Virus record (IMG/VR): IMGVR_UViG_3300022744_000051
Span: 1-41,325 of that record
DNA: 41,325 nucleotides
Source of the DNA: a virus
Strand: one strand, 5' to 3'
The notes beneath the pieces were generated by a model that searched no databases, was not told the origin of the DNA, and worked only from the letters and a program-made list of their open reading frames with translations. Position 1 is the stretch's first letter, and each line of letters starts with the position of its first letter. Shown here in pieces: positions 984 through 30,975 of the stretch. The translations under genes were made by a program, and so were the position numbers.

Positions 984-1907
984 TCAAGACATATCCCAGT
1001 CCGGACGGAAATCTACGAAGTCCACAAAGCCGGGATGGCGGGGCTTGTCCTTCTCTCCCATCCGCTGCTTCTTGTATCGGACCAGTAAGCCGGTCGGATC
1101 CCAGCCTTCAAGGATCATTCGCCAGAGCTGCTCTCGCTGCTCCTTGGTAAACCCGCCCCCGACTCTAACCTCAACGCGGTCCTTGAGGTCGTCGAGTATA
1201 AAACCCCCAAGAGAACCTTTCGCTTTCTTTCCCGCTTTAGCGGAAGATCGCTTGAGCTTGCCAGTAAGCTCACGGGTGGCAGCATTACCATTTCTCATCT
1301 CCTCGAACCATCCCTTGATCCGCCCCTCGGCGGTATCGAAGGGCTTACACTTCAGCAACCAACCTTGCCGGATCGTTGCCTTGCCTTCCTTGTAGGGGCC
1401 GTCTTCATCGCGGAACATGACTCCCTCATATCCTCGACCAAGCGATTCTTCCAAGAACTCCTTGGCATCATCGATGTCCTGGATCAAATAATGGGTTAGA
1501 AGCTTGATCTGGGGGTGAGCCAGCTTCTCCACAAGCTTACGAGCTTCGGTGTAGCGATCATACCAGCCCAGCTTGCCGATCAGGTCTGGTCGGTCGAAGA
1601 CCCATAGTTTGAACCGGGGCTCGCCAGTTCGACTCGTAAGCCCTGAAGAAGTCCTTGACAGAACATTGGCTCCCCGATTACGGCCAACAACTGCCTCCGC
1701 GTCGAGCGCATAGCCAGGAGGTAGAATGCCCTTGAGTTGATTGTGGAAGTGCTCATTGGGGAACCTTGAGAACCTGCTAGTCAGTGGGTGGTCGTGAAGT
1801 ATGCAGCGGAAGCCATCAATCTTGACGGATGCCCACTTCGGAAACTTCACCTGCTCAAGCGACTCAATTGCCTCGCCCTTCATCGGCCGACGGATGGGAA
1901 GCTTCAT
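984..1907 (-). CDS. ATP-dependent DNA ligase (phage type)
   Basis: Seals nicks in duplex DNA through a lysine-AMP intermediate during phage replication. The 307-residue protein has the nucleotidyltransferase motifs in order: motif I KIDG at 29-32 (K29 is the adenylated lysine), a LDAEA motif at 69-73, LWVFD at 101-105, EGVMFR at 161-166 and the motif V lysines at K186/K188. A short OB-like C-terminal part follows. The length matches compact T7-like phage ligases, without the zinc finger or BRCT domains of NAD-dependent enzymes. Its ATG overlaps the previous stop as ATGA (1904-1907) and has AGAGGAAG upstream, so the two genes are coupled. Confidence 0.93.
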   Translation of the reverse strand: MKLPIRRPMKGEAIESLEQVKFPKWASVKIDGFRCILHDHPLTSRFSRFPNEHFHNQLKGILPPGYALDAEAVVGRNRGANVLSRTSSGLTSRTGEPRFKLWVFDRPDLIGKLGWYDRYTEARKLVEKLAHPQIKLLTHYLIQDIDDAKEFLEESLGRGYEGVMFRDEDGPYKEGKATIRQGWLLKCKPFDTAEGRIKGWFEEMRNGNAATRELTGKLKRSSAKAGKKAKGSLGGFILDDLKDRVEVRVGGGFTKEQREQLWRMILEGWDPTGLLVRYKKQRMGEKDKPRHPGFVDFVDFRPDWDMS

Positions 1908-6231: not shown

Positions 6232-6279
6232 ATAGCCGGCGATATTAAAGAGAATACCTACACCCCGCTCCCCGGCTAT
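6232..6279 (-). terminator. Inverted repeat after thyX, possible terminator or processing site
   Basis: Perfect 8-bp arms, ATAGCCGG (6232-6239) and CCGGCTAT (6272-6279), flank a 32-base loop. On the minus strand the hairpin begins within the thyX stop codon and is followed by TATT. The long loop makes it a weak candidate terminator between thyX and the fibre genes. Confidence 0.4.
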
Positions 6280-7115
6280 CAGAAGACCTCCATGGTGGCT
6301 TCGTGATCGAGCGTCTTGCGGTGCTGGATCCAGCCGGTGAAGTTGCCGTGAAGCTCGGGATGCCGCCATATTACCGGGGTATGGTAATCCGCAAAGTCCG
6401 GAGTGGCCTGGTGCTCGGCGGGTGACGCATGAACCGGCCGGCTTACCACCAGCTTCTCGTACCGCTCTATTTCCGCGTTTACGTCAGCATTGCCATCAAA
6501 GGGCTTATAGCTCAAACGAGCGCAACGGGCCACCGACATCATCTTCAGGGTCTCAATACCCCATCGCCCATCAGATTCCCGCTCGGTTATATAGGGCAAA
6601 TGCCACTGGTCGTAACTCAGCGCCGTAGGCGTCGAAAGGCTTATTTTGTGTCGCATCACTCGCGCTAGCTCGTCAAACTCGGGCTGAGCGTACTCAGAAA
6701 TGCGAAGATCGAAGAAATTTTCCCAGTGCGTTGATGTCACGAGTACGTCGATCCACCCGAACCACTCAAGCGGCCTATTCGCATGTTGCTTGTGCATCCC
6801 CTCCGCCTGCCATCGATTGACCACCGCTCGACAGGTCTCCGCAAGGATCTCCCATTCATCGGCCCACTTCTGCTGAAGCTCGGGGGGTGCCACAATGTCG
6901 GATTGCATTCCGGGCTTGTTCATCCCGAACGTGGGCACGAACAGCGGCTCGGTCAACAACACCTTACTGGGAACCGCTCGACTACTACGGGCGTTGCGAC
7001 TAAAGACGCGATGGGTCATCAGCTCAGAGTGGATCGCTCGCCAGTACCGAAGGTGGAAGGTCGTGAGCCTAATACCCGCGGGGCTGATACTATCACAGAT
7101 TACGTTGGCAAACAT
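6279..7115 (-). CDS. thyX: FAD-dependent thymidylate synthase ThyX
   Basis: Converts dUMP to dTMP with methylene-tetrahydrofolate, FAD and NADPH, without making dihydrofolate. The signature helix is present as THRVFSRNARSSRA (34-47), matching the ThyX pattern RHRxxSxxxxSxR except that the first Arg is Thr, a form I associate with phage ThyX. The C-terminal part contains HASPAEHQA (about 230-238), another ThyX feature. At 278 residues it is slightly longer than the usual 220-250. It is the last enzyme gene of the small-gene operon and its start overlaps the previous stop (TAATG). Confidence 0.92.
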   Translation of the reverse strand: MFANVICDSISPAGIRLTTFHLRYWRAIHSELMTHRVFSRNARSSRAVPSKVLLTEPLFVPTFGMNKPGMQSDIVAPPELQQKWADEWEILAETCRAVVNRWQAEGMHKQHANRPLEWFGWIDVLVTSTHWENFFDLRISEYAQPEFDELARVMRHKISLSTPTALSYDQWHLPYITERESDGRWGIETLKMMSVARCARLSYKPFDGNADVNAEIERYEKLVVSRPVHASPAEHQATPDFADYHTPVIWRHPELHGNFTGWIQHRKTLDHEATMEVF

Positions 7116-7981: not shown

Positions 7982-8202
7982 CGCACTAGTACCTTCTCGA
8001 AGTTATCACAGACCAAAGAGGTGGCGACCTTCGGAGTCATTGTCTGCGGATCGATAACAGTCACCATAGCCTCATGATACTTGGTGCACTGAGTCTCCCA
8101 CAAAGGCTCACGAGGTTCAGACAGGACGACGACTACGCCAATTACTCCAAGAAAGACCATCGTCCATCCCCAGAGCCGCTCGCTATTCCACGGTGGCTTC
8201 AT
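7978..8202 (-). CDS. Single-span membrane protein, 74 aa
   Basis: The start is placed at ATG 8202, which overlaps the stop of the upstream 51-residue membrane gene (ATGA) and has TGGAGCG upstream. Residues 12-29 form one membrane segment (GWTMVFLGVIGVVVVLSE), followed by a 45-residue soluble domain with two Cys. A membrane-anchored periplasmic or cytoplasmic protein is likely. It is separate from the lysis cassette at 36.7-38.2 kb, so I do not call it a spanin. Confidence 0.62.
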   Translation of the reverse strand: MKPPWNSERLWGWTMVFLGVIGVVVVLSEPREPLWETQCTKYHEAMVTVIDPQTMTPKVATSLVCDNFEKVLVR

Positions 8203-8354
8203 GATACCACGCTCCACACTGCAAGCAGGAAGCCGCCAACCGCGAAGCACAAGCTCCCCAGCCAAGGCAATCCCCAGAAAGCTCGGTCGATACACTCCTT
8301 AGCGCCGACCAGGCAGGCTACAGTCCCCATGAAGAGGGTCAAGAGGTCAGTCAT
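8199..8354 (-). CDS. Membrane micropeptide, 51 aa
   Basis: A 51-codon leftward gene. It has a hydrophobic N-terminus (LLTLFMGTVACLVGA) and a second hydrophobic segment near the C-terminus (LGSLCFAVGGFLLAVW), so it likely spans the membrane once or twice. It overlaps the upstream gene by eight bases and the downstream membrane gene by ATGA. The pair of adjacent membrane genes suggests a joint role at the inner membrane; none is known. Confidence 0.6.
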   Translation of the reverse strand: MTDLLTLFMGTVACLVGAKECIDRAFWGLPWLGSLCFAVGGFLLAVWSVVS

Positions 8355-8649
8355 TACCAAGTACCTCCGCTTGTGCTTTCAAATCCTCAGTGATTGTCAC
8401 GGTCGCCTGAAACGCGAAGCCAGCATTACCAACCTCCACTTTCTCAATGAAGACCTTGTGCCAAACGCCGGGGGCTTTCAGGTCGATAGCGAAATTCTCG
8501 ACACAGCCTTCCGCAGCCGCAAACGCCAGCAAGTTCTTAATCTGGCCTTCATTGAATATGACCTTGTGTTGGCGCTCATGCTTGGTGTGGCTCTGCGCTT
8601 TGGGCAAGGCGACGAGGGGTTCTGTTTTCCACGCGCTCGGTTCAGACAT
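8347..8649 (-). CDS. Hypothetical protein, 100 aa
   Basis: The start at ATG 8649 is set by AAGGAGAGC upstream; the frame is open earlier, inside the preceding gene. The N-terminal 35 residues are polar, and the rest looks like a small alpha/beta domain ending in alternating strands (GFAFQATVTITED). Function unknown. Confidence 0.6.
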   Translation of the reverse strand: MSEPSAWKTEPLVALPKAQSHTKHERQHKVIFNEGQIKNLLAFAAAEGCVENFAIDLKAPGVWHKVFIEKVEVGNAGFAFQATVTITEDLKAQAEVLGND

Positions 8650-8926
8650 CACGGCTCTCCTTGGCTTTTGCGAGGGCGTCACGCCCGGCGTACCACACAC
8701 CCTCAGCGGTTATCCGTTCACCCGCCACCAGCGCGTCGGTTTTCAGCGGCACGGATTGAGCAATGAGGCAGACGGCATTTTCCAACGCCTCCACCAGCCC
8801 CGCGATTACCGCGTCCTGCTGGGTGATGCGGTCGGCTGCTTCGCGCTTCACCTTCTCGGGCTGGCGTAACACACCGTCCTTGCAGAACTTGCGCTTCCTC
8901 AGCCGCTCTACAAGATCACTCGCCAT
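8642..8926 (-). CDS. Hypothetical protein, 94 aa
   Basis: The start is set at ATG 8926 with GGAGGAAC upstream, a junction almost identical to that of the gene starting at 9352. The protein opens MASDLVERLRKRK and has a central helix rich in Ala, Glu and Gln. This kind of small protein is common in accessory clusters of alphaproteobacterial phages. Its end overlaps the next start by eight bases. Confidence 0.62.
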   Translation of the reverse strand: MASDLVERLRKRKFCKDGVLRQPEKVKREAADRITQQDAVIAGLVEALENAVCLIAQSVPLKTDALVAGERITAEGVWYAGRDALAKAKESRDV

Positions 8927-9161
8927 CGGTCTGTTCCTCCATTGCGGATGGCATCCCCTCGGCCATGAAACGAACCATCGCCTCAGCCTGAATGGCATCG
9001 AATAGGTTGGTGCCCATGATCTGCCTGCGATACTCGTGACCAGCGATGCCTTTGTTGCCGATCCAGCCATCGAAACTGATCCCACCGTCAGGGTTGAAGT
9101 TCTCAGGGATTGGCCAGCCAAGGAAGCGGTTGGCCATGTGCTTGATCTGTTCGTCGGTCAT
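8916..9161 (-). CDS. Hypothetical protein, 81 aa
   Basis: Begins MTDEQIKHMANRFLGW, then NFNPDGGISFDGW, and ends MEEQTDGE. This N-terminal pattern recurs in small accessory proteins of phages infecting alphaproteobacteria. Its last 27 bases closely match the end of the gene at 9342, pointing to duplication. Function unknown. Confidence 0.65.
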   Translation of the reverse strand: MTDEQIKHMANRFLGWPIPENFNPDGGISFDGWIGNKGIAGHEYRRQIMGTNLFDAIQAEAMVRFMAEGMPSAMEEQTDGE

Positions 9162-20451: not shown

Positions 20452-21126
20452 TTACTTGCCCCCTAGTAGGTTCTGTCGAAGTGGAACTGTATTGCCGAAT
20501 GCCCGGCCCGCGGTGTATCCCGAACTGTCTGTAATCCGGGCGGTTGTCTTCCGAGCAGCCTTCAATTTGCCGCCCGTAAGCTGGGTCAAGTAATCCCGGT
20601 TACCCTGCTCCTCCTGATCCGTTAAGACAACCAGCGCATTGCTCTGGCCCCTGCTAAGGTTAGGAAGTGCGGTAGCGGGTGCTGCCATCTCGAGGCAACG
20701 GCGATAGACTGACTGTGCAGCCCCGGTCATGAACGACCGACCGCCGCTGGCATATCGAGCCTCGGACTGGATGGCGCGCAGCGTCATCACGGCGATAGCA
20801 TGACAGACAGCCACGTTGCTCTCCTCGCCGACCAGCGTCACCTGATCGATCCGACCCTGCCGGTGATAGAACCACTTGCAGTAGTAGAGCTTCGTGATCC
20901 CATGAAGGACCGCGCTCGACCAAGGCCGGATGAGGACCTGCAAGGTTTTATGGGTGCGGACGGTTTCCCGATCCTCGGGCTCAAGCATCGCTCGATCCAA
21001 GTTGTGCTTGGCCATAAGCTCATGCGCCTTGGCGTTGAACGCTGCCGCCTCCTCGACTGTACAGGCGGTGTTATCAGCTTTCGCTAGGAGCTTACGGATA
21101 CGCTCCTTGATGGTGTCATCAACCAT
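20452..21126 (-). CDS. DUF2786-family protein, 224 aa
   Basis: The N-terminal 45 residues (IKERIRKLLAKADNTACTVE, then AAAFNAKAHELMAKHNLD) match the DUF2786 helical hairpin found in phage and bacterial proteins of unknown function. It is followed by the alpha/beta domain that normally accompanies it (VTLVGEESNVAVCHAIAVM). ATG 21126 has GGAGAACTGAA upstream and a promoter with leader hairpin. No catalytic role is established for the family. Confidence 0.8.
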   Translation of the reverse strand: MVDDTIKERIRKLLAKADNTACTVEEAAAFNAKAHELMAKHNLDRAMLEPEDRETVRTHKTLQVLIRPWSSAVLHGITKLYYCKWFYHRQGRIDQVTLVGEESNVAVCHAIAVMTLRAIQSEARYASGGRSFMTGAAQSVYRRCLEMAAPATALPNLSRGQSNALVVLTDQEEQGNRDYLTQLTGGKLKAARKTTARITDSSGYTAGRAFGNTVPLRQNLLGGK

Positions 21127-22137: not shown

Positions 22138-24054
22138 TTATTCTTCTTCGTCCTTGTCGAGGATCCAGTACTCCTCGCCTTTCTTCTTCTTAATGGTAAC
22201 GTTCATCTTGGAACCGGCCCGCTTGAGAAGTTTGCTGTCGATACTGCGCTTCTCACCCATGCGAATAAGTTTGCTGAGTTCGACAGCGACCCCGGCTATA
22301 GTTGACTCGAGGAATTCCATCGCGTCTTGCATGTGGTCACCCTGAGTACCCTTGGTCCTCGCCTCGTGAGAAGCAGCGAGGATCATGTCAGCGGTAAGCT
22401 CAGTGTACTCACCCCAGACGAATTCCGCGTTATTACCCTTCTTGGCATTGATGTTGAACGTTAAGCCCTTCGCCATTGGTGCAAGGTTATTCTTCGCCTG
22501 AGCCATAACGCGAGTGTCGGTATCGTCCGGGTGACAGCCAAAGGTGATGACGATACGAGCAGAACCGGTGAAGGACATTGACCCGGACCCCGCGGTGATT
22601 GCAGAGCCCCGGCTCTTTGTCAAGTGTCGGATAACAACGACCGCACAGTCGAAGTCTTTCGACAGCTGCACAAACCAGTTCATAGCCTGCGTGGCCTCGG
22701 AACCTTTGTGGGTATCCGCCTTACCGATGTATGTATTGAGAGTGTCGAAGCATATAGCCACAGGGCGAATGAGTTCGAGGTGCTCGTAGATCAGTGCTTG
22801 GGCGTCGGGATCCTCGATGCTGAAGGCCTGCTCCACAACGATGTAGTTCTTCAGTTTATCGAAGCCGTTGTAGGAGAGTCGGACTTTGGTAACAGAGCCG
22901 GCGTTGTTTTCAATGTCGAAGTATACGACGGGCCCGGATGTAAAGGGCATGCTGGGCCGAGGACTGGGGAGTTTCTCGCCACAAGCAATCGAGGCGAAGG
23001 CGATCATGGAGGCGAAGGATTTACCGAGGCCGGGATCACCTTCCCATAGAGTGACAGTTTTACGAGCGAGGTAGGGATACCAGATCCAAGCGATGTCCTC
23101 GGCCTCAATGTCTGCCAGGGGCTGGAAGTTGAGCATAGGTGCCCGGCGACCAACCTCCTCGTCGGATTCTTCTTGGTCGGATCCTCGTTTGAGTCTGTCT
23201 TTACCCCCGGGTGCTGCCCGGAAGTGATGATCTACGATCTTGCTCAGCTCTCGGCGAAGATGCTCATCCTCATTGCGTCGGTCCTTGAACTTATTCCAGG
23301 GGCAACGCTTGATGACAGCGAAGGCCTCATCGAGAGACATGCCCGCTTCAACGCAAGCGTTCTCCAGCTTCCAAAGCATCTCACTGCGATCAGCCTTCCC
23401 GGTGATCCGCTTAGCGATCAGCTCACGCCTCACCCACTGTGGAAGCTTCTTCTCATACTGAGAGAATACTTCGGCGGGATTAAGATCATTGCCGTCAATC
23501 TCGCCCAGTTCATCTTCCGGGGGAAGTAGCTTATTAAGCTTACGTATCGTGTATGTCGGTCCGTCGTCCCATAGTACGCGGACAATGGGCTGAGACGAGT
23601 ATTTGTAATTGCGAGTTCCCGGGTAGCGAAGCAGCTGTGTCGTATCCCACCCGCTCGGGTCTGCGCCTACGTGGTAAGTAAGGCGTCGGTTCAACGCCTC
23701 GGTGACCGGCTTGTTTGTTACCCACAGCCCGACGAAGCGGCCCGGCGACGACTCAATGAGGATTGTCGGCTTTAGGCCGTGAAACTGTTTATCCGAACGG
23801 GGGTCAGCTTCATCAAGGTCTGCCCACAGGAGGTTAGGTAGTTCGGCCTCTTCCTTGTTACGGACACGACGATTAAATCCATGAGGACAGAAGTAGATGT
23901 CTTTGTCGGCGTTGTCCTTGATGAACTGCCTGATCTTACCGAACTCGTCCGTTCCAAAGAAGTGAGTTCCAAAAGTTCCCGCCCCCGATTTGGTACAGAT
24001 ACAAAAGAAACGCCCCGGCTGATCCCGCCAGATGTCAGTTATTGATATTGTCAC
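22138..24054 (-). CDS. Fused DNA primase and RepA-type replicative helicase, 638 aa
   Basis: Primes and unwinds DNA at the phage replication fork. The N-terminal 180 residues match the RepB/AEP-type primase pattern: LWADLDEADP (76-85, with D79 and D81 as likely metal ligands) and LLRYPGTRNYK (141-151). The C-terminal half is a RecA-fold hexameric helicase of the RepA/AAA_25 type. Its Walker A is EGDPGLGKS (338-346) and its Walker B strand ends in FD at 436-437 (PVAICFDTLN). A charged linker (280-305) separates the two. The start is GTG 24054, overlapping the excisionase-like gene by 20 bases. It is the first large gene from the leftward divergent promoter. Confidence 0.87.
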   Translation of the reverse strand: MTISITDIWRDQPGRFFCICTKSGAGTFGTHFFGTDEFGKIRQFIKDNADKDIYFCPHGFNRRVRNKEEAELPNLLWADLDEADPRSDKQFHGLKPTILIESSPGRFVGLWVTNKPVTEALNRRLTYHVGADPSGWDTTQLLRYPGTRNYKYSSQPIVRVLWDDGPTYTIRKLNKLLPPEDELGEIDGNDLNPAEVFSQYEKKLPQWVRRELIAKRITGKADRSEMLWKLENACVEAGMSLDEAFAVIKRCPWNKFKDRRNEDEHLRRELSKIVDHHFRAAPGGKDRLKRGSDQEESDEEVGRRAPMLNFQPLADIEAEDIAWIWYPYLARKTVTLWEGDPGLGKSFASMIAFASIACGEKLPSPRPSMPFTSGPVVYFDIENNAGSVTKVRLSYNGFDKLKNYIVVEQAFSIEDPDAQALIYEHLELIRPVAICFDTLNTYIGKADTHKGSEATQAMNWFVQLSKDFDCAVVVIRHLTKSRGSAITAGSGSMSFTGSARIVITFGCHPDDTDTRVMAQAKNNLAPMAKGLTFNINAKKGNNAEFVWGEYTELTADMILAASHEARTKGTQGDHMQDAMEFLESTIAGVAVELSKLIRMGEKRSIDSKLLKRAGSKMNVTIKKKKGEEYWILDKDEEE

Positions 24055-24235
24055 TGGCTTCGTCCCTTTCCTTCTTCAACCTCTCTACTTCCGACTTGGG
24101 TATAAGAACCATTCGGTCGTTGGGACGCTCGACAATAACCGTACCCCTGTGGATACGTTGATGAAGGGCCATAAAGCTGATGCCAATCTCTTTAGCAGCA
24201 GCCCTTACGCCATAATAATCTTGCAAACTCTTCAC
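24035..24235 (-). CDS. Excisionase/MerR-like small DNA-binding protein, 66 aa
   Basis: Residues 6-50 (YYGVRAAAKEIGISFMALHQ, then RIHRGTVIVERPNDRMVLIP) fit the small winged-helix pattern of excisionase and MerR-type N-domains. The last 15 residues are a charged helix. Start GTG 24235 has GGGGTGATTT upstream. It lies directly below the overlapping divergent promoters and is the first gene of the leftward unit, so it may control the switch or assist the primase at an origin. Confidence 0.68.
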   Translation of the reverse strand: MKSLQDYYGVRAAAKEIGISFMALHQRIHRGTVIVERPNDRMVLIPKSEVERLKKERDEASDNINN

Positions 24236-24247
24236 AAATCACCCCGG

Positions 24248-24277
24248 TTGACAATGGCGGCGAACTCGGAATATACT
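24248..24277 (+). promoter_or_regulatory. Rightward promoter of the replication arm
   Basis: TTGACA (24248-24253), 18-bp spacer, TATACT (24272-24277). The first rightward gene starts at 24323. It shares its -10 region with the leftward promoter. Confidence 0.72.
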
Positions 24278-24322: not shown

Positions 24323-24817
24323 ATGGCCATCATCATCGAGGGAATGGACAATTCCGGGAAGTCTACGCTGGCCGTACGGCTGGCTGATTATATGGGCTTG
24401 GTCGTGCGAGAAAGTGAAGGGCCTCCTCGGTCGGACGAAGAGATCAACGCACGGGTGGATGCCTATGAGCAGCTCTCAGGTGTTCTCTTTGTTCGTCATC
24501 CCGTTATCTCTAACGCGATCTATGGATCGGTTCGTCCCAAAGGGAATCCGATCACTCCCGGCAGGGAGATGCTGTTCTACGAGCAGCCTCATGTCTTTAT
24601 ATATTGTGACGCGGGCAATCGTGGCCTAGGCGCTCACGTAGAAAAGGCTCACGATACTCCTCAACACCTCGAGGACATTACCAACAATTACAATAAGCTC
24701 CTGTATCTTTACAGGCAGTGGGCTGCGGAACACGCTCACTTTATCTACCGCATCGGCGACGATATGGATCAGCTGATTGCGACGATCTATTTCCACCACT
24801 GTTACTCAGTAGCTTAA
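24323..24817 (+). CDS. Deoxynucleoside/thymidylate monophosphate kinase-like P-loop protein, 164 aa
   Basis: The start is placed at ATG 24323 (AAGGATTTTTTG upstream); the longer open frame includes the promoter. The P-loop GMDNSGKST (7-15) and the segment LFVRHPVISNAIYGS (about 56-70), in the place of the DR motif, fit the thymidylate kinase family. That family transfers phosphate from ATP to a dNMP. At 164 residues it is shorter than typical enzymes. Given the next genes it may phosphorylate a modified dCMP, the role played by a different enzyme (gp1) in T4. Substrate is inferred, not shown. Confidence 0.78.
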   Translation: MAIIIEGMDNSGKSTLAVRLADYMGLVVRESEGPPRSDEEINARVDAYEQLSGVLFVRHPVISNAIYGSVRPKGNPITPGREMLFYEQPHVFIYCDAGNRGLGAHVEKAHDTPQHLEDITNNYNKLLYLYRQWAAEHAHFIYRIGDDMDQLIATIYFHHCYSVA

Positions 24818-24828
24818 GGAGCTCAGCG

Positions 24829-25722
24829 ATGTTTATTCCAACTCACCGCCACAAGAATGGCGGCCTTTATCAGCGTCTAGGCACCATGGAAGGGAAGCCC
24901 GAGGGTCCCGACGTAGGATGGCAGCCGGGAGTTGCCTACCGAAATGAGGCGGAAGAAATGTTCTGGACCCACAGGGAGCGATGGGATGAAGGGTTCGACA
25001 CAATTGAGGACTCGGATACTCGGGATGAGATAATCTGGGAGGACCATGTTAATGTCTCCGCCTTCCGCTTCTCCCTTGTGGAAGCCACGGACGTTTTCTA
25101 TATGATTTCCCGTGCGGGGCCCGTTACCGGTCATGCCCTAAGCTCGGAGTTTATCAGCTGGATGAAGCGGCTGTTTTCGGTACAGGCGGAGATGATTTCC
25201 GATAACCTGCACATCCGGGACCACGACTTCCCTGATATGATCGGGGATGTTAACGCCTTCCACGCTAAGTTCGGTCAGGAATATACAGGTAAGCCCCGGT
25301 TGCTTCCGGATGACCTCCATGACTTCCGCCACAAGTTCCACATGGAGGAGACCCATGAGTACCACGACGAGTACCCTAAGCTGCTGGACGCGGTTGCCCG
25401 CCAAGATCGTCGAGACATTGTTAACGCACTGGAAACCCAACTGGACTCTCTGGTTGATGCTGCTTGGGTGATCCTCGGCACTGCAGATGTCCAATTTGGT
25501 CGTCGGGCATTCATTGAGGCCTGGCGCCGGGTGGTGAAGGCTAACATGGCCAAGATCCGGAAGGATAATACCACCGACGGAGATGGTAGCGTTGACTCCG
25601 GTCGCGCACCGAAGTACGATATTGTCAAGCCCGCTGGTTGGGAAGCTCCCGATCATCGTGATCTTGTCTCGGACAACGCGATCTTCGACGAGCTGTTTGG
25701 CTCGGCGGACATGAAGGAGTAA
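24829..25722 (+). CDS. MazG-like nucleotide pyrophosphohydrolase with N-terminal DUF1653-like region, 297 aa
   Basis: The start is at ATG 24829 with AAGGAG upstream. Residues 5-60 resemble a DUF1653-type domain (HRHKNGGLYQRLG ... YRNEAEEMFW). Residues about 139-245 are an all-alpha NTP pyrophosphohydrolase: the metal motif is HMEETHEYHDE (171-181, with E173, E174 and E177), and DSLVDAAWVILG (207-218) supplies D207 and D210. This superfamily includes MazG, dUTPases and the T4 dCTPase. Beside dCMP hydroxymethylase-like genes, removal of unmodified dCTP is a reasonable inference. Substrate unknown. Confidence 0.82.
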   Translation: MFIPTHRHKNGGLYQRLGTMEGKPEGPDVGWQPGVAYRNEAEEMFWTHRERWDEGFDTIEDSDTRDEIIWEDHVNVSAFRFSLVEATDVFYMISRAGPVTGHALSSEFISWMKRLFSVQAEMISDNLHIRDHDFPDMIGDVNAFHAKFGQEYTGKPRLLPDDLHDFRHKFHMEETHEYHDEYPKLLDAVARQDRRDIVNALETQLDSLVDAAWVILGTADVQFGRRAFIEAWRRVVKANMAKIRKDNTTDGDGSVDSGRAPKYDIVKPAGWEAPDHRDLVSDNAIFDELFGSADMKE

Positions 25723-25727
25723 GTGCT

Positions 25728-26561
25728 TTGAAGGATGAGTGGATCAAGGAAGTCCTTAGACTTTCCCGAATGCCCGCGGACTTCTACTCGGGATGCCGAA
25801 AGATTATCCAGGGTAGACAAACGAAGTTCATGGACCTGTGGGATGATGAGGATCCGCTCATCCTCGAGGACTGTGGATACACCAAGTCGAAGATGGCTCA
25901 CCTTACCCGGGGGTACTTACATGAGGAAAGCCTTGAGGCCGCACACATGCTCTGGAAGCTACGGCGTACTAAGACGTCTTATGGTTCTGCGGGTTTTACA
26001 ACCTATAATCACTTCCTTAAAAACGATGCCGTTAAGAAATCCAAACGAGCATCTGTTATGGGACCTTGTATTCAGGCAATTACCCTGACGCAGATAAAGG
26101 GTGGTAAGAATGGTAAGTATTCCATCGATGCCTTCTATCGTACCACGGAGATACTGAAGAAGTTCCCCGCGGACTTGATTTTTATCCGGGATGTCCTGCT
26201 TAAGGATTTTGACTTCTCCGGCATGGAATTCACGGGGATGACTTGTCACTTCGCCAATGTTACTATCCACCCTCAGTACTTTGTGACTGCTATCCCTCAC
26301 CTCGAGGATCCTATCCGTGAGCTGGAAAAGATCAAGCGTAAGGATAAGTATTTCTATGACTGGATTATCAAATGGACCGCCAGGTACTTATGCGATGAAC
26401 ACTTTAGGGGCATTGAGAAGTTTGCTCAGGCTCTCCGCGTCAAAGTCGATGCCGACAAACGTATCCGCGGAAAGGATCGCCGTCTTCTCGCTGCTTACCT
26501 TCGAGAAAACCACCCCGGACACCGGAGTGAATATGAAGCCCCAGAGGAGGACGAAGAATGA
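25728..26561 (+). CDS. Divergent thymidylate-synthase-fold protein, 277 aa
   Basis: TTG start at 25728 with AAGGAG eight bases upstream. The region from 108 to 185 lines up with the thymidylate synthase core: GPC (112-114, with C114 as the nucleophile), FYRTTE (136-141, in place of YQRSxD), FPADL (146-150, in place of PFNI) and FTGMTCHF (168-175, in place of WTGGDTHLY). D149 takes the place of the Asn that selects dUMP, as in dCMP-using enzymes. The N-terminal 90 residues are helical and unfamiliar, and the last 40 are basic then acidic. It overlaps the next synthase-like gene by ATGA. It could be a dCMP-modifying enzyme or partner subunit. Confidence 0.68.
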   Translation: MKDEWIKEVLRLSRMPADFYSGCRKIIQGRQTKFMDLWDDEDPLILEDCGYTKSKMAHLTRGYLHEESLEAAHMLWKLRRTKTSYGSAGFTTYNHFLKNDAVKKSKRASVMGPCIQAITLTQIKGGKNGKYSIDAFYRTTEILKKFPADLIFIRDVLLKDFDFSGMEFTGMTCHFANVTIHPQYFVTAIPHLEDPIRELEKIKRKDKYFYDWIIKWTARYLCDEHFRGIEKFAQALRVKVDADKRIRGKDRRLLAAYLRENHPGHRSEYEAPEEDEE

Positions 26562-27403
26562 TCTTCAAGACGTTTGATGAAGCCCAGAAGCAACTGCGCG
26601 AGGACATGGTTAACCTCGCTCCACTAGTGCATTCCCGCCGGTGGCAAGGTGCTGAGATTGCGAACAATCCCAACATGGCAACCTATGAGCTGACCCACAC
26701 TCATTTCGTAGTGGACCTGTCCGGGTTAGAAGAGGACATCGAGGCCTACCAGAGAGACATCCGACCCGACCTTCCCTGGGCGGAGGATCACTTCCTTGAG
26801 CGAGTATGTGGATCACCGATCAACCCCGGCACTCACTGGGCGAATTGGGCCCACAATAATAAGGCGGGTGCAGCTCACTTCCTTGATGAGCGCGGCAAGT
26901 TCAACCACAACTACATGGAACGGTACTGGCCTAAGTACGCCGGCGCTGTGCAGCAACCCACCGAGCTGAAGGATGACTGGCGCTCGAGGTTCCGGTATAT
27001 CTCTCAGGAGCGGGGAGTACCCACGGCGCATAGAGGCATCATGTATGAGTACGGCGATCTATCAGATGTTGTCTCGCTCCTCGCGGAGGACCCCTATACT
27101 CGTCAGGCCTACTTCCCCGTCTGGTTCCCCGAGGACACCGGCGGCGGATCGAAGAGGACGCCCTGCACCCTCGGCTACCACTTTCTTATGAGGGAAGGTC
27201 GGCTGGACATCAACTACCACATTCGGAGCTGCGACTTCTACAAACACTTCCGGAATGACCTCTACCTGACTGTCCGTCTCCTCCTGTGGGTATTGAAGGC
27301 TGTTCGTTCCCGCAATCTCGAGTGGAACGACGTAGTACCCGGTTACTTCGTCATGGAGATCGGCTCACTCCATGTATTCAAGATGGACTGGGATAAGATC
27401 TGA
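26558..27403 (+). CDS. dCMP hydroxymethyltransferase-like enzyme, 281 aa
   Basis: The expected reaction is dCMP plus methylene-tetrahydrofolate to 5-hydroxymethyl-dCMP. Residues 181-275 match the thymidylate synthase superfamily and especially T4 dCMP hydroxymethylase: TRQAYFPVW (181-189), TPC with C203, IRSCD (222-226), FRND (231-234) and IGSLHVF (268-274). T4 has FRND and GSLHV at the same places. D234 replaces the Asn that reads uracil O4, the known determinant of cytosine preference. ATG 26558 overlaps the previous stop and has GAGGAGGACGAAGA upstream. It is coupled to the 64-residue and dCMP deaminase genes. A dUMP-using relative remains possible but less likely. Confidence 0.82.
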   Translation: MIFKTFDEAQKQLREDMVNLAPLVHSRRWQGAEIANNPNMATYELTHTHFVVDLSGLEEDIEAYQRDIRPDLPWAEDHFLERVCGSPINPGTHWANWAHNNKAGAAHFLDERGKFNHNYMERYWPKYAGAVQQPTELKDDWRSRFRYISQERGVPTAHRGIMYEYGDLSDVVSLLAEDPYTRQAYFPVWFPEDTGGGSKRTPCTLGYHFLMREGRLDINYHIRSCDFYKHFRNDLYLTVRLLLWVLKAVRSRNLEWNDVVPGYFVMEIGSLHVFKMDWDKI

Positions 27404-27597
27404 TGCAGATCACCACCGCCTATATGATCGGGGACCGCGTCACTATCGACCGTGATGAGTCCCTGGTCGGTGTTATCACCGCGATCAGCATCCGCGGCGA
27501 GGGGTTAAACATCACCTATGAGGTCAGCTACATTCATTGTGGAAGTAGTCATGCTCCGTGGGTCGAGCAATGGAGGATTAACAAATGGCAAGGGTAA
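27403..27597 (+). CDS. Small beta-barrel-like protein, 64 aa
   Basis: ATG 27403 overlaps the hydroxymethylase stop (TGATG). The strand pattern (YMIGDRVTIDRDESLVGVIT, then YEVSYIHCGSSHAPWVEQW) suggests an SH3- or KOW-like small barrel. It lies between two nucleotide enzymes and overlaps the deaminase start by 13 bases. Function unknown. Confidence 0.6.
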   Translation: MQITTAYMIGDRVTIDRDESLVGVITAISIRGEGLNITYEVSYIHCGSSHAPWVEQWRINKWQG

Positions 27598-28082
27598 GTC
27601 GACAGCAGATGTTCATGGGGATTGCAAGGCTCGCTTCACAGCGGGCCACTTGCTTTCGCCTAAACGTCGGAGCCATGGTAGTCCATGACAACAATCCAAT
27701 CGCCATGGGGTACAATGGACAGCGACCGGGAGAGGATCACTGTCAAGGAAACGAATGCCCCGGCATCATCCCCGGCAACTGTGGTACCTTCCACGCCGAG
27801 GTGAACGCGCTGACGAAAGCTTCGACCTTGCTTGCCAGCAGCGCAGGCGTCGGTAAGTGGCCCGCCGAAGTCGATCTGTACTGCACAGATAGCCCCTGCG
27901 GGTATTGTACTACCTTCATCCTTGAGAATACCCCGCTGAGGGTTACTCGGATATTCTACGGTACGCCCTATCGAGATACCTCACACCTCGGTCGGTTCTT
28001 CGGCATTACCGAGGTTTATCAAATCACCCCGGCAGGTTATATTGTCGATCACTTTACTCGGAAAGTTATCGAGCTACCATGA
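27585..28082 (+). CDS. dCMP deaminase, 165 aa
   Basis: Converts dCMP to dUMP, feeding ThyX and draining unmodified dCMP. The zinc site of the cytidine/dCMP deaminase family is present: HAE (70-72, with E72 catalytic) and PCGYC (104-108, with C105 and C108 as zinc ligands). Length is normal for phage dCMP deaminases. The extra segment CQGNECPGIIPGNCG (53-67), with three more Cys, may bind the second zinc seen in T4-type enzymes. ATG 27585 follows GGAGGATTAACAA; the stop overlaps the polymerase start. Confidence 0.9.
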   Translation: MARVSRQQMFMGIARLASQRATCFRLNVGAMVVHDNNPIAMGYNGQRPGEDHCQGNECPGIIPGNCGTFHAEVNALTKASTLLASSAGVGKWPAEVDLYCTDSPCGYCTTFILENTPLRVTRIFYGTPYRDTSHLGRFFGITEVYQITPAGYIVDHFTRKVIELP

Positions 28083-30586
28083 CCAAAGAGATCATGATTA
28101 TTGGGGAACACCCCGACCTTAACCCCCGCGGTAAGTCCATTCTCTACAATGCGATGGCTTCCGCGGGGTTCGACGAGGATGACTTTCGGATGATAACGGT
28201 GCTCGATGAGGCACCCCCGGAAGGCAAGAACATCACCAAGACAATGATTAAGGCGAGCCGGGATAAGCTCCTAAGGCGCGTCGAGAAGAGGGATCCCAAG
28301 TATGTTGTGCTCCTTGGTAACACCGCCTGCCAAGCTTTCCTTGATGAGTCCGGTATTAAGAAGCTTCGTGGCAAGCCCTCGGATAAAAACGGACGAGTCG
28401 TACTACCCATCCTGCATCCCTATCAAGCCCTACACGATGACAAATGGATCAGTGTCATTGAAGGGGATCTACAACGCCTCAAGGAATGTGTTAAGTTCGG
28501 GGGTATTCCTGAGGAACGGTCGCTTGACTATCATATTGTGGATACCCGATCAAAACTCCGACAGATGTTGGAAGACCTACAGGGGACGGTAGCAGTAGAC
28601 CTTGAAACCACAAGGTTGTATCCTTTTACCACCCTACAAGATGAGCGGATAGAAAAGAAGCAGGTGAATGATGCCCTGCTTAAGGCCCACAAGGCGACCC
28701 ATAGCTCGAACAACCTGCCCCGGGTGGTAGCAATGCAGTTCGGGTGCCGCAAGCGTCAATGGGTAGTACCCATGGAGACCGCCGGCATCTGGACTCGTGA
28801 AGAGCTGGAGGGCATTGTCAAGGCTGTCACCAAGAGGCTGAAGCGTTGTAAGACGGTATTCCACAATGGGAAGTTCGATGCCCTGTGGATGCGCGTTCGG
28901 TTCGGCGTAAAGTGGCGAGTAGACTTCGACACAATGCTGGCGCACTACTTGATCGATGAGAACGACCTTCACGGCCTAAAGTACCTCGCTCAGCGATATT
29001 TGGGCGTTGCTGACTGGGATGTCGAGGGCGGTGTAAAGACTGCCTGGTCGATGAAGAACGCGAAGTACGCGGCCCACGACGTCTTCTATACTCGTAAGCT
29101 GTACTTCATCCTTCGTAAGATGCTCCGTGAAGACTCGGATACCGAGCGTGTCTTTAACCTGGTGATGATGCCCTGCGTTAAGCTGTTCATCGAGGTTGAG
29201 TATAACGGGGTATACATCAATCTCGATAAGATGGACGATGCTGAGGTCTACCTCCGTGATGAGCTTAACTTCGCCCTGGTAAACCTTGAGAAGTGGGGCA
29301 AGAAGGCGACGAAGGTTGATGCGAAAGGCCCCAATAAAGGCAAGATCAATTGGGGTAGTGCTGATCAGCTGGGCAACCTGCTGTTCAAGGACCTCAAGAT
29401 TAAGTCGATTGAAAAAACGAAAGGCGGCAAAGACAGTGTTAGCGAATCCGTCCTCCTCCGTATCGATCATCCCATGGTCGGCGACCTTCTCAAGTACCGA
29501 GCTGCATCGAAGCAACTCAGCAGCTTCATTGAAGGCTGGCGTCCTTACATTGACACAGACGGGAGACTCCATCCAGTATTCAAATTGCATGGTACTGTTA
29601 CCGGCCGCCTGTCTTGCGAGCATCCCAATCTCCAACAAGTCCCCCGAGATCCTCGCATCAGAACTCTTATCACAGCTCCTCCGGGATGGACGCTTCTTGA
29701 GATGGATCTCAGCCAGATTGAGCTTCGCATTGCCGCCGAGCTTGCAAATGAGTATAACCTCCTCAGCGTATTCAACTCAGGGGGTGATCCTCACTGGCAA
29801 ACTGCAATTCGAGAGATAGAACGAGGCGCAGGATACAAGAAAGAGATTATCGAGACCGTCAAGCTTCACCACAAGCACGAGGGCAAAGAATACGAAAAGA
29901 TGTCCTACAGCCAGGCGGTTGAGTACATACTCGCGATAGGCGGCGATGTCGCGGCCGACATGATGAGTATGTGGAAGGAAGTCCGTAAGAAGGCGAAGGC
30001 TATTAACTTCGGGTACCTTTATGGTATGTGGTGGAAGAAGTTCAAGATTTACGCCCGGGATAACTATGGAGTCGATGTTACCGACGAGGAAGCACAGGCG
30101 AGCCGTGAGGCATTCTTCGAGCTTTACTCGGGGTTTCCCAAGTGGCATGAGAAGCAACGCCGGTTTGCACAGGTGAATGGCTACGTTAGGTCACCCTCCG
30201 GTCGCAAGCGTCGCCTCCCCGCGGCAACAGTTGGCCGGGACACCCCGGAGCGTCGAGAAGCTCAGCGGCAGGCAATTAACAGCCCGGTGCAGTCCTTCGC
30301 TAATGAGCTTAACCTCATGGCAGCCCTACAGATGAGAAAGGAGTTCAGCTGGAATTGGTTCCGACCCTGCGGTACGGTCCACGACGCTACCCTTATGTGG
30401 GTACGGGATGACAAGCTCCAGTATGTCTGGGATCGGGGATTAGAAATTATGAGCGGACCCGAGTTGTTGACAGACTTCGAGATTAAGCTATCAGTACCCA
30501 TTTGTGCTGATGCTAAGGCGGGCCCTTGGGGCGCGGGTAAGGACCTTCAGAAGTGGCTATCCCTTAAAGGGGAACCATCATGCTAG
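28079..30586 (+). CDS. Uracil-DNA-glycosylase-like / family A DNA polymerase fusion, 835 aa
   Basis: Replicative polymerase. Residues 1-135 resemble a uracil-DNA-glycosylase-superfamily domain (GEHPDLNPRG, VVLLGNTACQAF, LPILHPYQAL). Then a 3'-5' exonuclease: Exo I AVDLETT (D174, E176), Exo II HNGKFD (D267), Exo III YAAHD (Y330, D334). Polymerase motif A is MDLSQIELR with D543. Motif B is RKKAKAINFGYLYG (636-649), with F644 at the position that excludes dideoxynucleotides. Motif C reads VHDA (767-770), where most family members have HDE. A roughly 65-residue insert lies between motifs A and B. ATG 28079 overlaps the deaminase stop. Confidence 0.93.
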   Translation: MTKEIMIIGEHPDLNPRGKSILYNAMASAGFDEDDFRMITVLDEAPPEGKNITKTMIKASRDKLLRRVEKRDPKYVVLLGNTACQAFLDESGIKKLRGKPSDKNGRVVLPILHPYQALHDDKWISVIEGDLQRLKECVKFGGIPEERSLDYHIVDTRSKLRQMLEDLQGTVAVDLETTRLYPFTTLQDERIEKKQVNDALLKAHKATHSSNNLPRVVAMQFGCRKRQWVVPMETAGIWTREELEGIVKAVTKRLKRCKTVFHNGKFDALWMRVRFGVKWRVDFDTMLAHYLIDENDLHGLKYLAQRYLGVADWDVEGGVKTAWSMKNAKYAAHDVFYTRKLYFILRKMLREDSDTERVFNLVMMPCVKLFIEVEYNGVYINLDKMDDAEVYLRDELNFALVNLEKWGKKATKVDAKGPNKGKINWGSADQLGNLLFKDLKIKSIEKTKGGKDSVSESVLLRIDHPMVGDLLKYRAASKQLSSFIEGWRPYIDTDGRLHPVFKLHGTVTGRLSCEHPNLQQVPRDPRIRTLITAPPGWTLLEMDLSQIELRIAAELANEYNLLSVFNSGGDPHWQTAIREIERGAGYKKEIIETVKLHHKHEGKEYEKMSYSQAVEYILAIGGDVAADMMSMWKEVRKKAKAINFGYLYGMWWKKFKIYARDNYGVDVTDEEAQASREAFFELYSGFPKWHEKQRRFAQVNGYVRSPSGRKRRLPAATVGRDTPERREAQRQAINSPVQSFANELNLMAALQMRKEFSWNWFRPCGTVHDATLMWVRDDKLQYVWDRGLEIMSGPELLTDFEIKLSVPICADAKAGPWGAGKDLQKWLSLKGEPSC

Positions 30587-30975
30587 GGGAGACTGAGGAG
30601 CAACGGAGACGGCGACTTAGGAATAATAATGAGGCCTTTAAGCAAAGAAAGCTTGCGGGAGACGGCCGCGACTGGCTGTGGTATAAAACGAAGAAGAGGG
30701 CCAAGCGGCAAGGAGTGCTCTTCACTTTAAGAAGGGAGGATGTACCTCCCATACCCTTAAGGTGTCCTGTATTTGGCTTTAAGATGTCCTTTGAGGGTTC
30801 TCATGCAGACAAGGAAAACACGCCAACCTTGGACCGTATTAACAATGAGAAGGGGTATGTTCGAGGAAACGTGGCGGTGGTGAGCTGGAAAGCAAATAGG
30901 ATAAAGCAGCAACTATCTATTCCAGAGCTGATTGACTTAGCAAACTATTATAGTCAATATAAGAAACAATCCTAG
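30580..30975 (+). CDS. HNH endonuclease, 131 aa
   Basis: A freestanding HNH nuclease. The C-terminal half has CPVFGFKMSF (about 73-82), then TPTLDRINNEKGYVRGNV (about 91-108) and VVSWKANRIK, the pattern of small phage HNH enzymes with an invariant Asp and Asn. The first 45 residues are very basic, probably for DNA contact. It overlaps the end of the polymerase gene by seven bases and separates it from the Fe-S nuclease gene, the usual place for a homing-type insertion. Confidence 0.85.
   Translation: MLGETEEQRRRRLRNNNEAFKQRKLAGDGRDWLWYKTKKRAKRQGVLFTLRREDVPPIPLRCPVFGFKMSFEGSHADKENTPTLDRINNEKGYVRGNVAVVSWKANRIKQQLSIPELIDLANYYSQYKKQS

Follow-up and report, generated by a model that had tools for sequence, protein, structure and literature searches.

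The window analysed here is the whole 41,325-nucleotide stretch of the IMG/VR virus record IMGVR_UViG_3300022744_000051, which holds between positions 24323 and 30586 a cassette of genes arranged head to tail on the plus strand: a kinase, a MazG-like pyrophosphohydrolase, two genes of thymidylate synthase (TS) fold termed TS-A and TS-B, a dCMP deaminase and a PolA-type DNA polymerase. All six had been named by an original prediction made from the sequence, and ORF, Pfam/PHROG and AF2 evidence placed each of them at the expected position and strand. The same prediction described the genes as nearly all overlapping, which is true of the TS-A/TS-B and deaminase/PolA junctions, whereas the kinase and MazG genes, and likewise MazG and TS-A, are separated by short gaps. 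A further overlap of a few bp joins the polymerase gene to an HNH-type endonuclease gene (30580–30975, +; PHROG 3322, 1.5e-28), and a small ORF of 64 aa (27403–27597, +) gave no family match in Pfam or PHROG. Just upstream of the cassette lies a promoter-like site, TTGACA-18-TATACT, recognised by consensus match only (24248–24277, +; 11/12). The divergent ORF beyond it (24035–24235, −) encodes a small DNA-binding-like protein that is likely a regulator, and its position in two related loci, L003 and L004, is held by genes annotated as “transcriptional repressor” or “antitoxin”.

The kinase-like gene (24323–24817, +) encodes a small P-loop protein of 164 aa related to dNMP/thymidylate kinases; the profile check proposed for it succeeded with PHROG 761 (thymidylate kinase, E 2.4e-11), but Pfam Thymidylate_kin (PF02223) stayed below threshold. 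The MazG-like ORF (24826–25722, +), a candidate dCTPase, matched nucleotide pyrophosphohydrolase PHROG 671 (E 6.8e-15) and by sequence would fall in the same general class, all-alpha nucleotide pyrophosphohydrolases, as T4 gp56; the pyrophosphohydrolase family found at this place differs among relatives. The dCMP deaminase (27585–28082, +) was identified by PF00383 (5.2e-17) and PHROG 174 (4.5e-28), and the family A polymerase (28079–30586, +; PF00476, 3e-65) also carries a 3′-5′ exonuclease domain (PF01612, 9e-20) and an N-terminal UDG-superfamily domain (PF03167, 5e-9). Elsewhere, the window encodes an ATP-dependent DNA ligase (984–1907, −; PF01068 6.4e-11, PF14743 4.2e-8) and the flavin-dependent thymidylate synthase ThyX (6279–7115, −; PF02511 6.7e-10, PHROG 85 1.1e-78; motif THRVFSRNARSSR), a gene that the original prediction had missed. 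Because ThyX probably acts as a separate source, dTMP supply is probably covered, and its presence, together with the finding that none of the window ORFs matched phage DHFR queries, suggests that the TS-fold genes do not serve to make dTMP. As the original prediction had noted, no glucosyltransferase was found in the window; likewise, no carbamoyltransferase was recognised there, nor any arabinose/sugar genes among the window ORFs scanned.

TS-B (26558–27403, +; 281 aa) is labelled thymidylate synthase in public annotations, and we regard it as a predicted dCMP-specific enzyme of the TS superfamily and candidate dCMP hydroxymethylase. It belongs to PF00303 (27.5 bits vs. a cut-off of 24.3, E 2e-6) and PHROG 160 (3e-29), and its AF2 model (pLDDT 94.9) gave 396 PDB matches at E<=0.001 in Foldseek, including the CMP hydroxymethylase MilA (8e-13) and, among the best fold matches, AfhB. 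Among solved structures, the larger of two TS-B profiles matched best to AfhB, a dCMP hydroxylase (5e-8), and the smaller preferred L. casei TS. TS-B forms a separate clade with a long stem (support 100/100), resembles AfhB about as closely as it does T4 gp42, and is not a gp42 orthologue.

The active site was compared across 97 distinct TS-B homologues. Asp234 occupies the position of E. coli ThyA Asn177 and is Asp in all of them (alignment census); this residue is Asn in ThyA and in the dUMP hydroxymethylases SPO1 gp29 and M6 gp58, and Asp in gp42, and in TS-B it is the cytosine-specificity switch. A 5hmU product was rejected because the M6, Vi01 and SPO1 enzymes carry Asn177. The equivalents of catalytic Cys146, Arg166 and His207 (C203, R223 and H272) are invariant (97/97), as is a His at position 173; the folate-site Asp169 equivalent, D226, is kept in 96/97, and position 147 is Thr or Ser, like the Thr of gp42, not His. 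Only 7–37 residues (median 14) follow the His207 equivalent, whereas ThyA has 57 there, gp42 has 30 and the TS homologue of phage AXL_1 has 63; TS-B is thus missing the long C-terminal tail of the thymidylate synthase type, and loss of the sealing tail has been described for the T4 enzyme (PMC6400193). In the N-terminal half the alignments disagree, so that firm claims are drawn from the C-terminal half only. Here E121xxW124 (95/97 each) fits the Glu58 motif ExxW and Y165-G166 (87/97 and 94/97) the Tyr94 motif YG; the first alignment had placed Tyr94 at Y119, but motif inspection with more references favours Y165, with E121xxW124 as Glu58xxTrp61. A signature for dCMP hydroxymethylases, D145 (Asp/Glu three residues before the Cys) plus S94 (Ser/Thr two before Tyr94), was proposed from the T4 structure (PMC6400193), and the 97 aligned TS-B homologues lack it. 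At position −3 from the Cys all of them have Arg (R200), where gp42, SPO1 gp29 and M6 gp58 have Asp, AfhB has Glu and AXL_1 has Asn, and the Ser94 position is taken, depending on the alignment, by H117 (94/97) or by the variable residue 163, not by Ser/Thr. The TS-B lineage, as far as its residues tell, would consist of cytosine-type TS enzymes that depart from the published hydroxymethylase signature.

The prediction of two TS-fold genes also held, TS-B by PF00303 and fold, and TS-A (25728–26561, +; 277 aa) by structure model only. By sequence, TS-A had no Pfam match and no PDB match (phmmer/hmmsearch), its hhalign comparisons with TS-B and AfhB were not significant, and its one match was to PHROG 34294, of unknown function. 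Its AF2 model (pLDDT 91.6) matched uncharacterised phage proteins at 2.7e-9 and then TS in Foldseek; the 50 best PDB matches listed are TS-superfamily structures throughout (best E 2.8e-5), with probability 1.00 and a TM of about 0.45 for the best. Judged by its modelled fold, TS-A is a member of the TS superfamily, and its family appears to be a previously unrecognised one. Y63, C114, R138 and D149 are present in 87/87 homologues, the last three being equivalents of the TS Cys, Arg166 and Asp/Asn177, and no conserved acidic residue equivalent to Glu58 precedes Y63 in these 87 sequences; TS-A is apparently without folate machinery. A genome scan found TS-A on only two MAG contigs, hence the family looks virus-bound.

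In the 76 distinct related loci whose context is complete, the polymerase is present in 75, the deaminase in 74, the kinase in 72, TS-A in 71 and MazG in 54, a conservation of gene order far beyond chance. TS-A accompanies TS-B at 89 of 97 distinct loci, mostly directly upstream, and a 4-nt stop/start overlap is possible in 40 of these 89; at some loci DNA methyltransferase genes stand in the place of TS-A, or inserts separate the pair. ThyX was detected in only a few relatives, but most loci are partial. The cassette is shared by many environmental phages and by phages of Pseudomonas, Serratia, Brevundimonas, Yersinia, Gordonia, Streptomyces and Mycobacterium, with Brevundimonas Strzyga, Pseudomonas PMBT14, Serratia Serbin, Gordonia Emalyn and Mycobacterium Muddy as named examples. 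We found no literature on base modification for the cultured relatives. That said, all isolates of a collection that included the relatives Strzyga and Polewnik were sorted by their EcoRI patterns, although not reported phage by phage (PMC10070969); the DNA of both was thus presumably cut, which counts weakly against modified cytosine.

Given these observations, we propose that the phage uses the cassette to provide its DNA synthesis with a deoxycytidine triphosphate modified at C5, and we assign this explanation as a whole a probability of about 0.58. It would probably be a real dCMP-modification cassette, built on an enzyme distinct from that of T4 and on a partner with the same fold that had gone unrecognised; published metagenome data link the gene combination and Asp177 to cytosine-modified phage DNA (PMC8670742). 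From the gene content, order, conservation, folds and TS-A/TS-B residues observed here we infer the following reactions. The MazG-like enzyme would convert dCTP to dCMP, removing the normal nucleotide and supplying the substrate. TS-B would hold dCMP with Asp234, attack C6 with Cys203 and transfer to C5 a one-carbon unit donated by methylene-tetrahydrofolate; as its site is unsealed by a TS-type tail, the methylene intermediate would most likely take up water to give 5-hydroxymethyl-dCMP. The kinase may then form the diphosphate and a host kinase the triphosphate, to be inserted by the PolA polymerase, with the deaminase and ThyX feeding dTTP. TS-A would be a divergent companion still able to bind a cytosine nucleotide, either helping TS-B or carrying out an additional step. 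Asp177, the kept Cys and Asp169, the missing tail and ThyX support modification of dCMP before incorporation; read from sequence, some C5-modified dC is very probably made. The predicted hydroxymethylcytosine is somewhat favoured as the product, from homology and context rather than directly from the active site, since TS-B lacks D145/S94 and is no orthologue of gp42.

Alternatively, TS-B would be a dCMP methylase, and the phage, like Xp12, would carry 5-methylcytosine, formed on the free nucleotide. Asp177 alone converts TS into a dCMP methylase (PMC8670742), AXL_1 (a Bosavirus, the genus of Xp12) has a similar gene order, and the water-activating Asp/Glu of hydroxymethylases is missing from TS-B; yet the AXL_1 enzyme keeps its full 63-residue tail and sits beside DHFR, as expected if dihydrofolate is produced, and has Asn at −3, whereas TS-B has a short tail, Arg at −3 and no DHFR found in the window, so we consider methylation rather unlikely, though host DHFR could still serve. 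Ordinary metabolism, with TS-A and TS-B as diverged thymidylate synthases and the DNA unmodified, would also account for a kinase, MazG, TS and dCMP deaminase, all of which also serve dTTP supply, and would agree with the public annotation of TS-B; we find it quite unlikely against the universal Asp177, Asn in ThyA, the missing tail and the ThyX already in the window, even if only a few relatives, at mostly partial loci, show ThyX. The 5-hydroxy-dCMP synthases also belong to the TS superfamily (PMC13390438), and a dCMP 5-hydroxylase like AfhB or the Mosigvirus 5-hodCMP synthase, yielding 5-hydroxycytosine, would fit the profile and fold matches of TS-B to AfhB, whose structures (PDB 9iqu/9iqc) are titled as a riboflavin-dependent dCMP hydroxylase/monooxygenase. 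However, all three AfhB-type sequences compared (AfhB, Acj9 and a Rhizobium homologue, from which this empirical criterion was taken) have Asn169 and Val173, where TS-B has Asp169 (96/97) and His173, and the sugar genes of the AfhB neighbourhood were not recognised among the ORFs scanned, which makes this reading quite unlikely.

Two further proposals concern the TS-A/TS-B pair. TS-A and TS-B may form one hetero-oligomer with TS-A as a degenerate regulatory or structural subunit, which is compatible with the explanation preferred here. The shared fold, the frequent adjacency of the genes and their possible overlap are in line with this, the precedent being the obligate TS dimer, in which the partner subunit contributes an Arg to the active site. 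But a mirror-tree comparison showed no TS-A/TS-B coupling once the shared background was accounted for (partial r 0.02), some loci replace TS-A or separate the pair, and the invariant Tyr-Cys-Arg-Asp set points to TS-A having its own active site, and we hold the idea only tentatively. It is also conceivable, but unlikely, that the pair makes an undescribed cytosine base by two-step hypermodification of free dCMP before polymerisation: either TS-B, with Arg replacing the water-activating Asp, would pass its exocyclic methylene to another nucleophile, or TS-A, with Cys, Arg and Asp kept, would re-activate the TS-B product and add a second group.

Should the preferred C5-modification reading be right, a large group of phages whose genes currently bear the labels “thymidylate synthase” and “hypothetical protein” could gain an assigned DNA modification, and restriction, CRISPR and sequencing of cassette phages would be affected. 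TS-A now names a concrete candidate for an unrecognised TS-fold family, and the TS-B lineage makes the reach of the published signature directly testable.

Among known systems, the original comparison with T4 was apt in that every role in hydroxymethyl-dCTP synthesis has its counterpart here: a pyrophosphohydrolase (gp56), a dCMP-acting TS-superfamily enzyme (gp42), a dNMP kinase (gp1) and a dCMP deaminase (cd). TS-B shares with gp42 the Asp at 177/179, the catalytic Cys, the following Thr and a short C-terminal tail, but forms a separate clade without D145/S94; unlike T4, this phage has ThyX, a PolA-type polymerase and a contig of siphovirus size, has no glucosyltransferase found, and carries in TS-A a gene without T4 counterpart. 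The dUMP hydroxymethylases (SPO1 gp29, M6 gp58, Vi01) are likewise TS-superfamily members, with an Arg-Gln pair at 126/127 in SPO1 and Vi01 as in TS-B, but differ by Asn177 (uracil) and Asp at −3. AfhB of Escherichia phage HY126 and the Mosigvirus synthase share the TS fold, dCMP substrate, Asp177 and short C-terminus, and differ in Asn169, Val173 and Glu at −3 against Asp, His and Arg. AXL_1, our Bosavirus representative in place of Xp12, matches the window in its pyrophosphohydrolase-TS(Asp177)-dCMP deaminase order, but has a full tail, an adjoining DHFR and no TS-A recorded beside its TS. In the MetaGPA study, which makes no mention of TS-A that we found and whose carbamoyltransferase was not recognised in the window, TS with Asp177 neighboured by pyrophosphohydrolase and dCMP deaminase was enriched on cytosine-modified phage contigs, as was the DNA ligase domain (PMC8670742), and all four are shared with the window described here.

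The genes at 24323-30586 of the window, a 41,325-base virus contig, are a true dCMP-modification cassette. Cassettes of this type have previously been associated with modified cytosines in phages; in this lineage the TS-B active site is atypical, and TS-A (PHROG 34294), a second protein with the same thymidylate synthase (TS) fold as TS-B, lacks annotation. Downstream of a promoter-like site, TTGACA-18-TATACT (24248-24277), the rightward (+) genes are, in order, those for a small kinase (24323-24817), MazG-like pyrophosphohydrolase (24826-25722), TS-A (25728-26561), TS-B (26558-27403), a 64-aa ORF, dCMP deaminase (27585-28082) and a family A polymerase (28079-30586) that also carries an exonuclease domain and, at its N-terminus, a UDG-superfamily domain. 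The gene calls of the original prediction were correct. An HNH nuclease, PD-(D/E)XK-type exonuclease, Sak4-like annealing protein, SSB-like protein and helicase follow in the same direction. The UDG-superfamily domain lies at 28133-28435 (+; residues 19-119, PF03167, 5e-9), and a DUF2786/DUF7168 protein (PHROG 421) is encoded at 20452-21126 (-).

The nearest named relatives are the Brevundimonas phages Strzyga and Polewnik, and more distant ones infect Pseudomonas, Serratia, Stutzerimonas, Yersinia, Gordonia, Streptomyces and Mycobacterium. A search of IMG/VR yielded 395 contigs that encode relatives of TS-B, and the 80 best of these entered the analysis. TS-A shares the locus with 89 of the 97 distinct TS-B sequences, and the 76 full-context loci contain polymerase (75), deaminase (74), kinase (72), TS-A (71), exonuclease (70), Sak4 (67) and MazG (54). 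Mycobacterium phage Muddy carries MazG/dUTPase, TS-A and TS-B genes (L016:4521-6648). A gene annotated as lysin B/endolysin lies between TS-B and the deaminase in Gordonia phage Emalyn (L010:6974-7813) and a second locus (L017:6947-7750); the Emalyn product is cutinase-like (PF01083, 6.6e-7), and both could be cassette enzymes instead of lysins. In L105 a DHH/DHHA1-family phosphoesterase (8154-9077) separates TS-A from TS-B, and L127 and L129 have inserts of similar size. An ATP-dependent DNA ligase is encoded at 984-1907 (-) in the window and recurs beside TS-B in L060, L084 and L121, in agreement with the ligase association in contigs of the metagenome study MetaGPA.

We aligned TS-B with T4 gp42, the dUMP hydroxymethylases SPO1 gp29 and M6 gp58, E. 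coli ThyA (key residues confirmed at their expected positions) and others. Position 177 governs uracil versus cytosine preference, and cytosine-modified phage DNA is enriched for TS genes that encode Asp177 and lie near pyrophosphohydrolase and deaminase genes (PMC8670742). This residue is Asn in ThyA and the dUMP hydroxymethylases and Asp in gp42 and TS-B (97/97 homologues), so that TS-B should act on dCMP. 5-Hydroxy-dCMP synthases of the TS superfamily have also been described (PMC13390438), and PDB titles for the phage enzyme AfhB read dCMP hydroxylase or riboflavin-dependent monooxygenase. The folate residue Asp169 is kept in 96/97 TS-B whereas all three AfhB-type sequences examined have Asn, which favours folate chemistry over hydroxylation, by a rule that is empirical and drawn from few sequences.

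TS-A found no thymidylate synthase match in Pfam or PDB sequence searches. Its AF2 model (61 phage homologues, pLDDT 91.6) matches TS-superfamily structures, bearing out the fold predicted from raw sequence. Tyr63, Cys114, Arg138 and Asp149 occur in 87/87 distinct homologues, at identities down to ~20%, and hhalign places the Cys, Arg and Asp opposite TS Cys146, Arg166 and position 177, in an alignment not significant by itself. The homologues conserve no acidic residue before Tyr63, and 81/87 have Glu in place of the folate Asp. With Tyr, Cys, Arg and Asp kept, TS-A thus probably binds a cytosine nucleotide and attacks it, the usual folate step being absent. Its tight linkage to TS-B, with a possible 4-nt overlap in 40/89 loci, suggests a joint task; a co-evolution test gave no signal. 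Several TS-B loci without TS-A have an upstream C5-cytosine DNA methylase and/or N4/N6 methylase-like gene. L133 carries both (L133:7897-9977), the former identified by Pfam (PF00145, 2e-18), and L103, L116, L117, L118 and L128 show the C5 pattern by motif only; these methylases possibly replace TS-A.

Whether TS-B adds methyl or hydroxymethyl is approached from its tail, its neighbours and its active site. The thymidylate synthase C-terminal tail shuts out water and is absent from T4 dCMP hydroxymethylase (PMC6400193); after the His207 equivalent we counted a median of 14 residues in TS-B, 57 in ThyA, 63 in the TS of the Bosavirus phage AXL_1 (Xp12's genus) and 30 in gp42. In AXL_1 a DHFR adjoins the TS gene, and no window ORF matched DHFR. 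The window encodes ThyX (6279-7115, -), therefore dTMP can be supplied without a ThyA-type enzyme; ThyX is also close to the TS-A/TS-B pair in L003, L008, L034, L060 and L088. The short tail, the lack of a DHFR match and ThyX together favour hydroxymethylation. Against it, the signature proposed from the T4 structure, Asp/Glu at -3 from Cys with Ser/Thr near Tyr94 (PMC6400193), is missing: position -3 is Arg in 97/97 and TS-B homologues conserve no Ser/Thr near the Tyr94 equivalent, and we thus did not assign TS-B to the gp42 family. The tree groups the TS-B sequences in one clade (100/100) with a long stem branch, and long-branch warnings apply to it. As to further modification, no glycosyltransferase or carbamoyltransferase was found among the window ORFs scanned; many ORFs lack a family and the contig is possibly incomplete, so the base may still carry a sugar.

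The predicted T4-style role is partly supported. TS-B, which has Asp177 in common with T4 gp42, would use the substrate of a dCMP hydroxymethylase and probably forms the same product.
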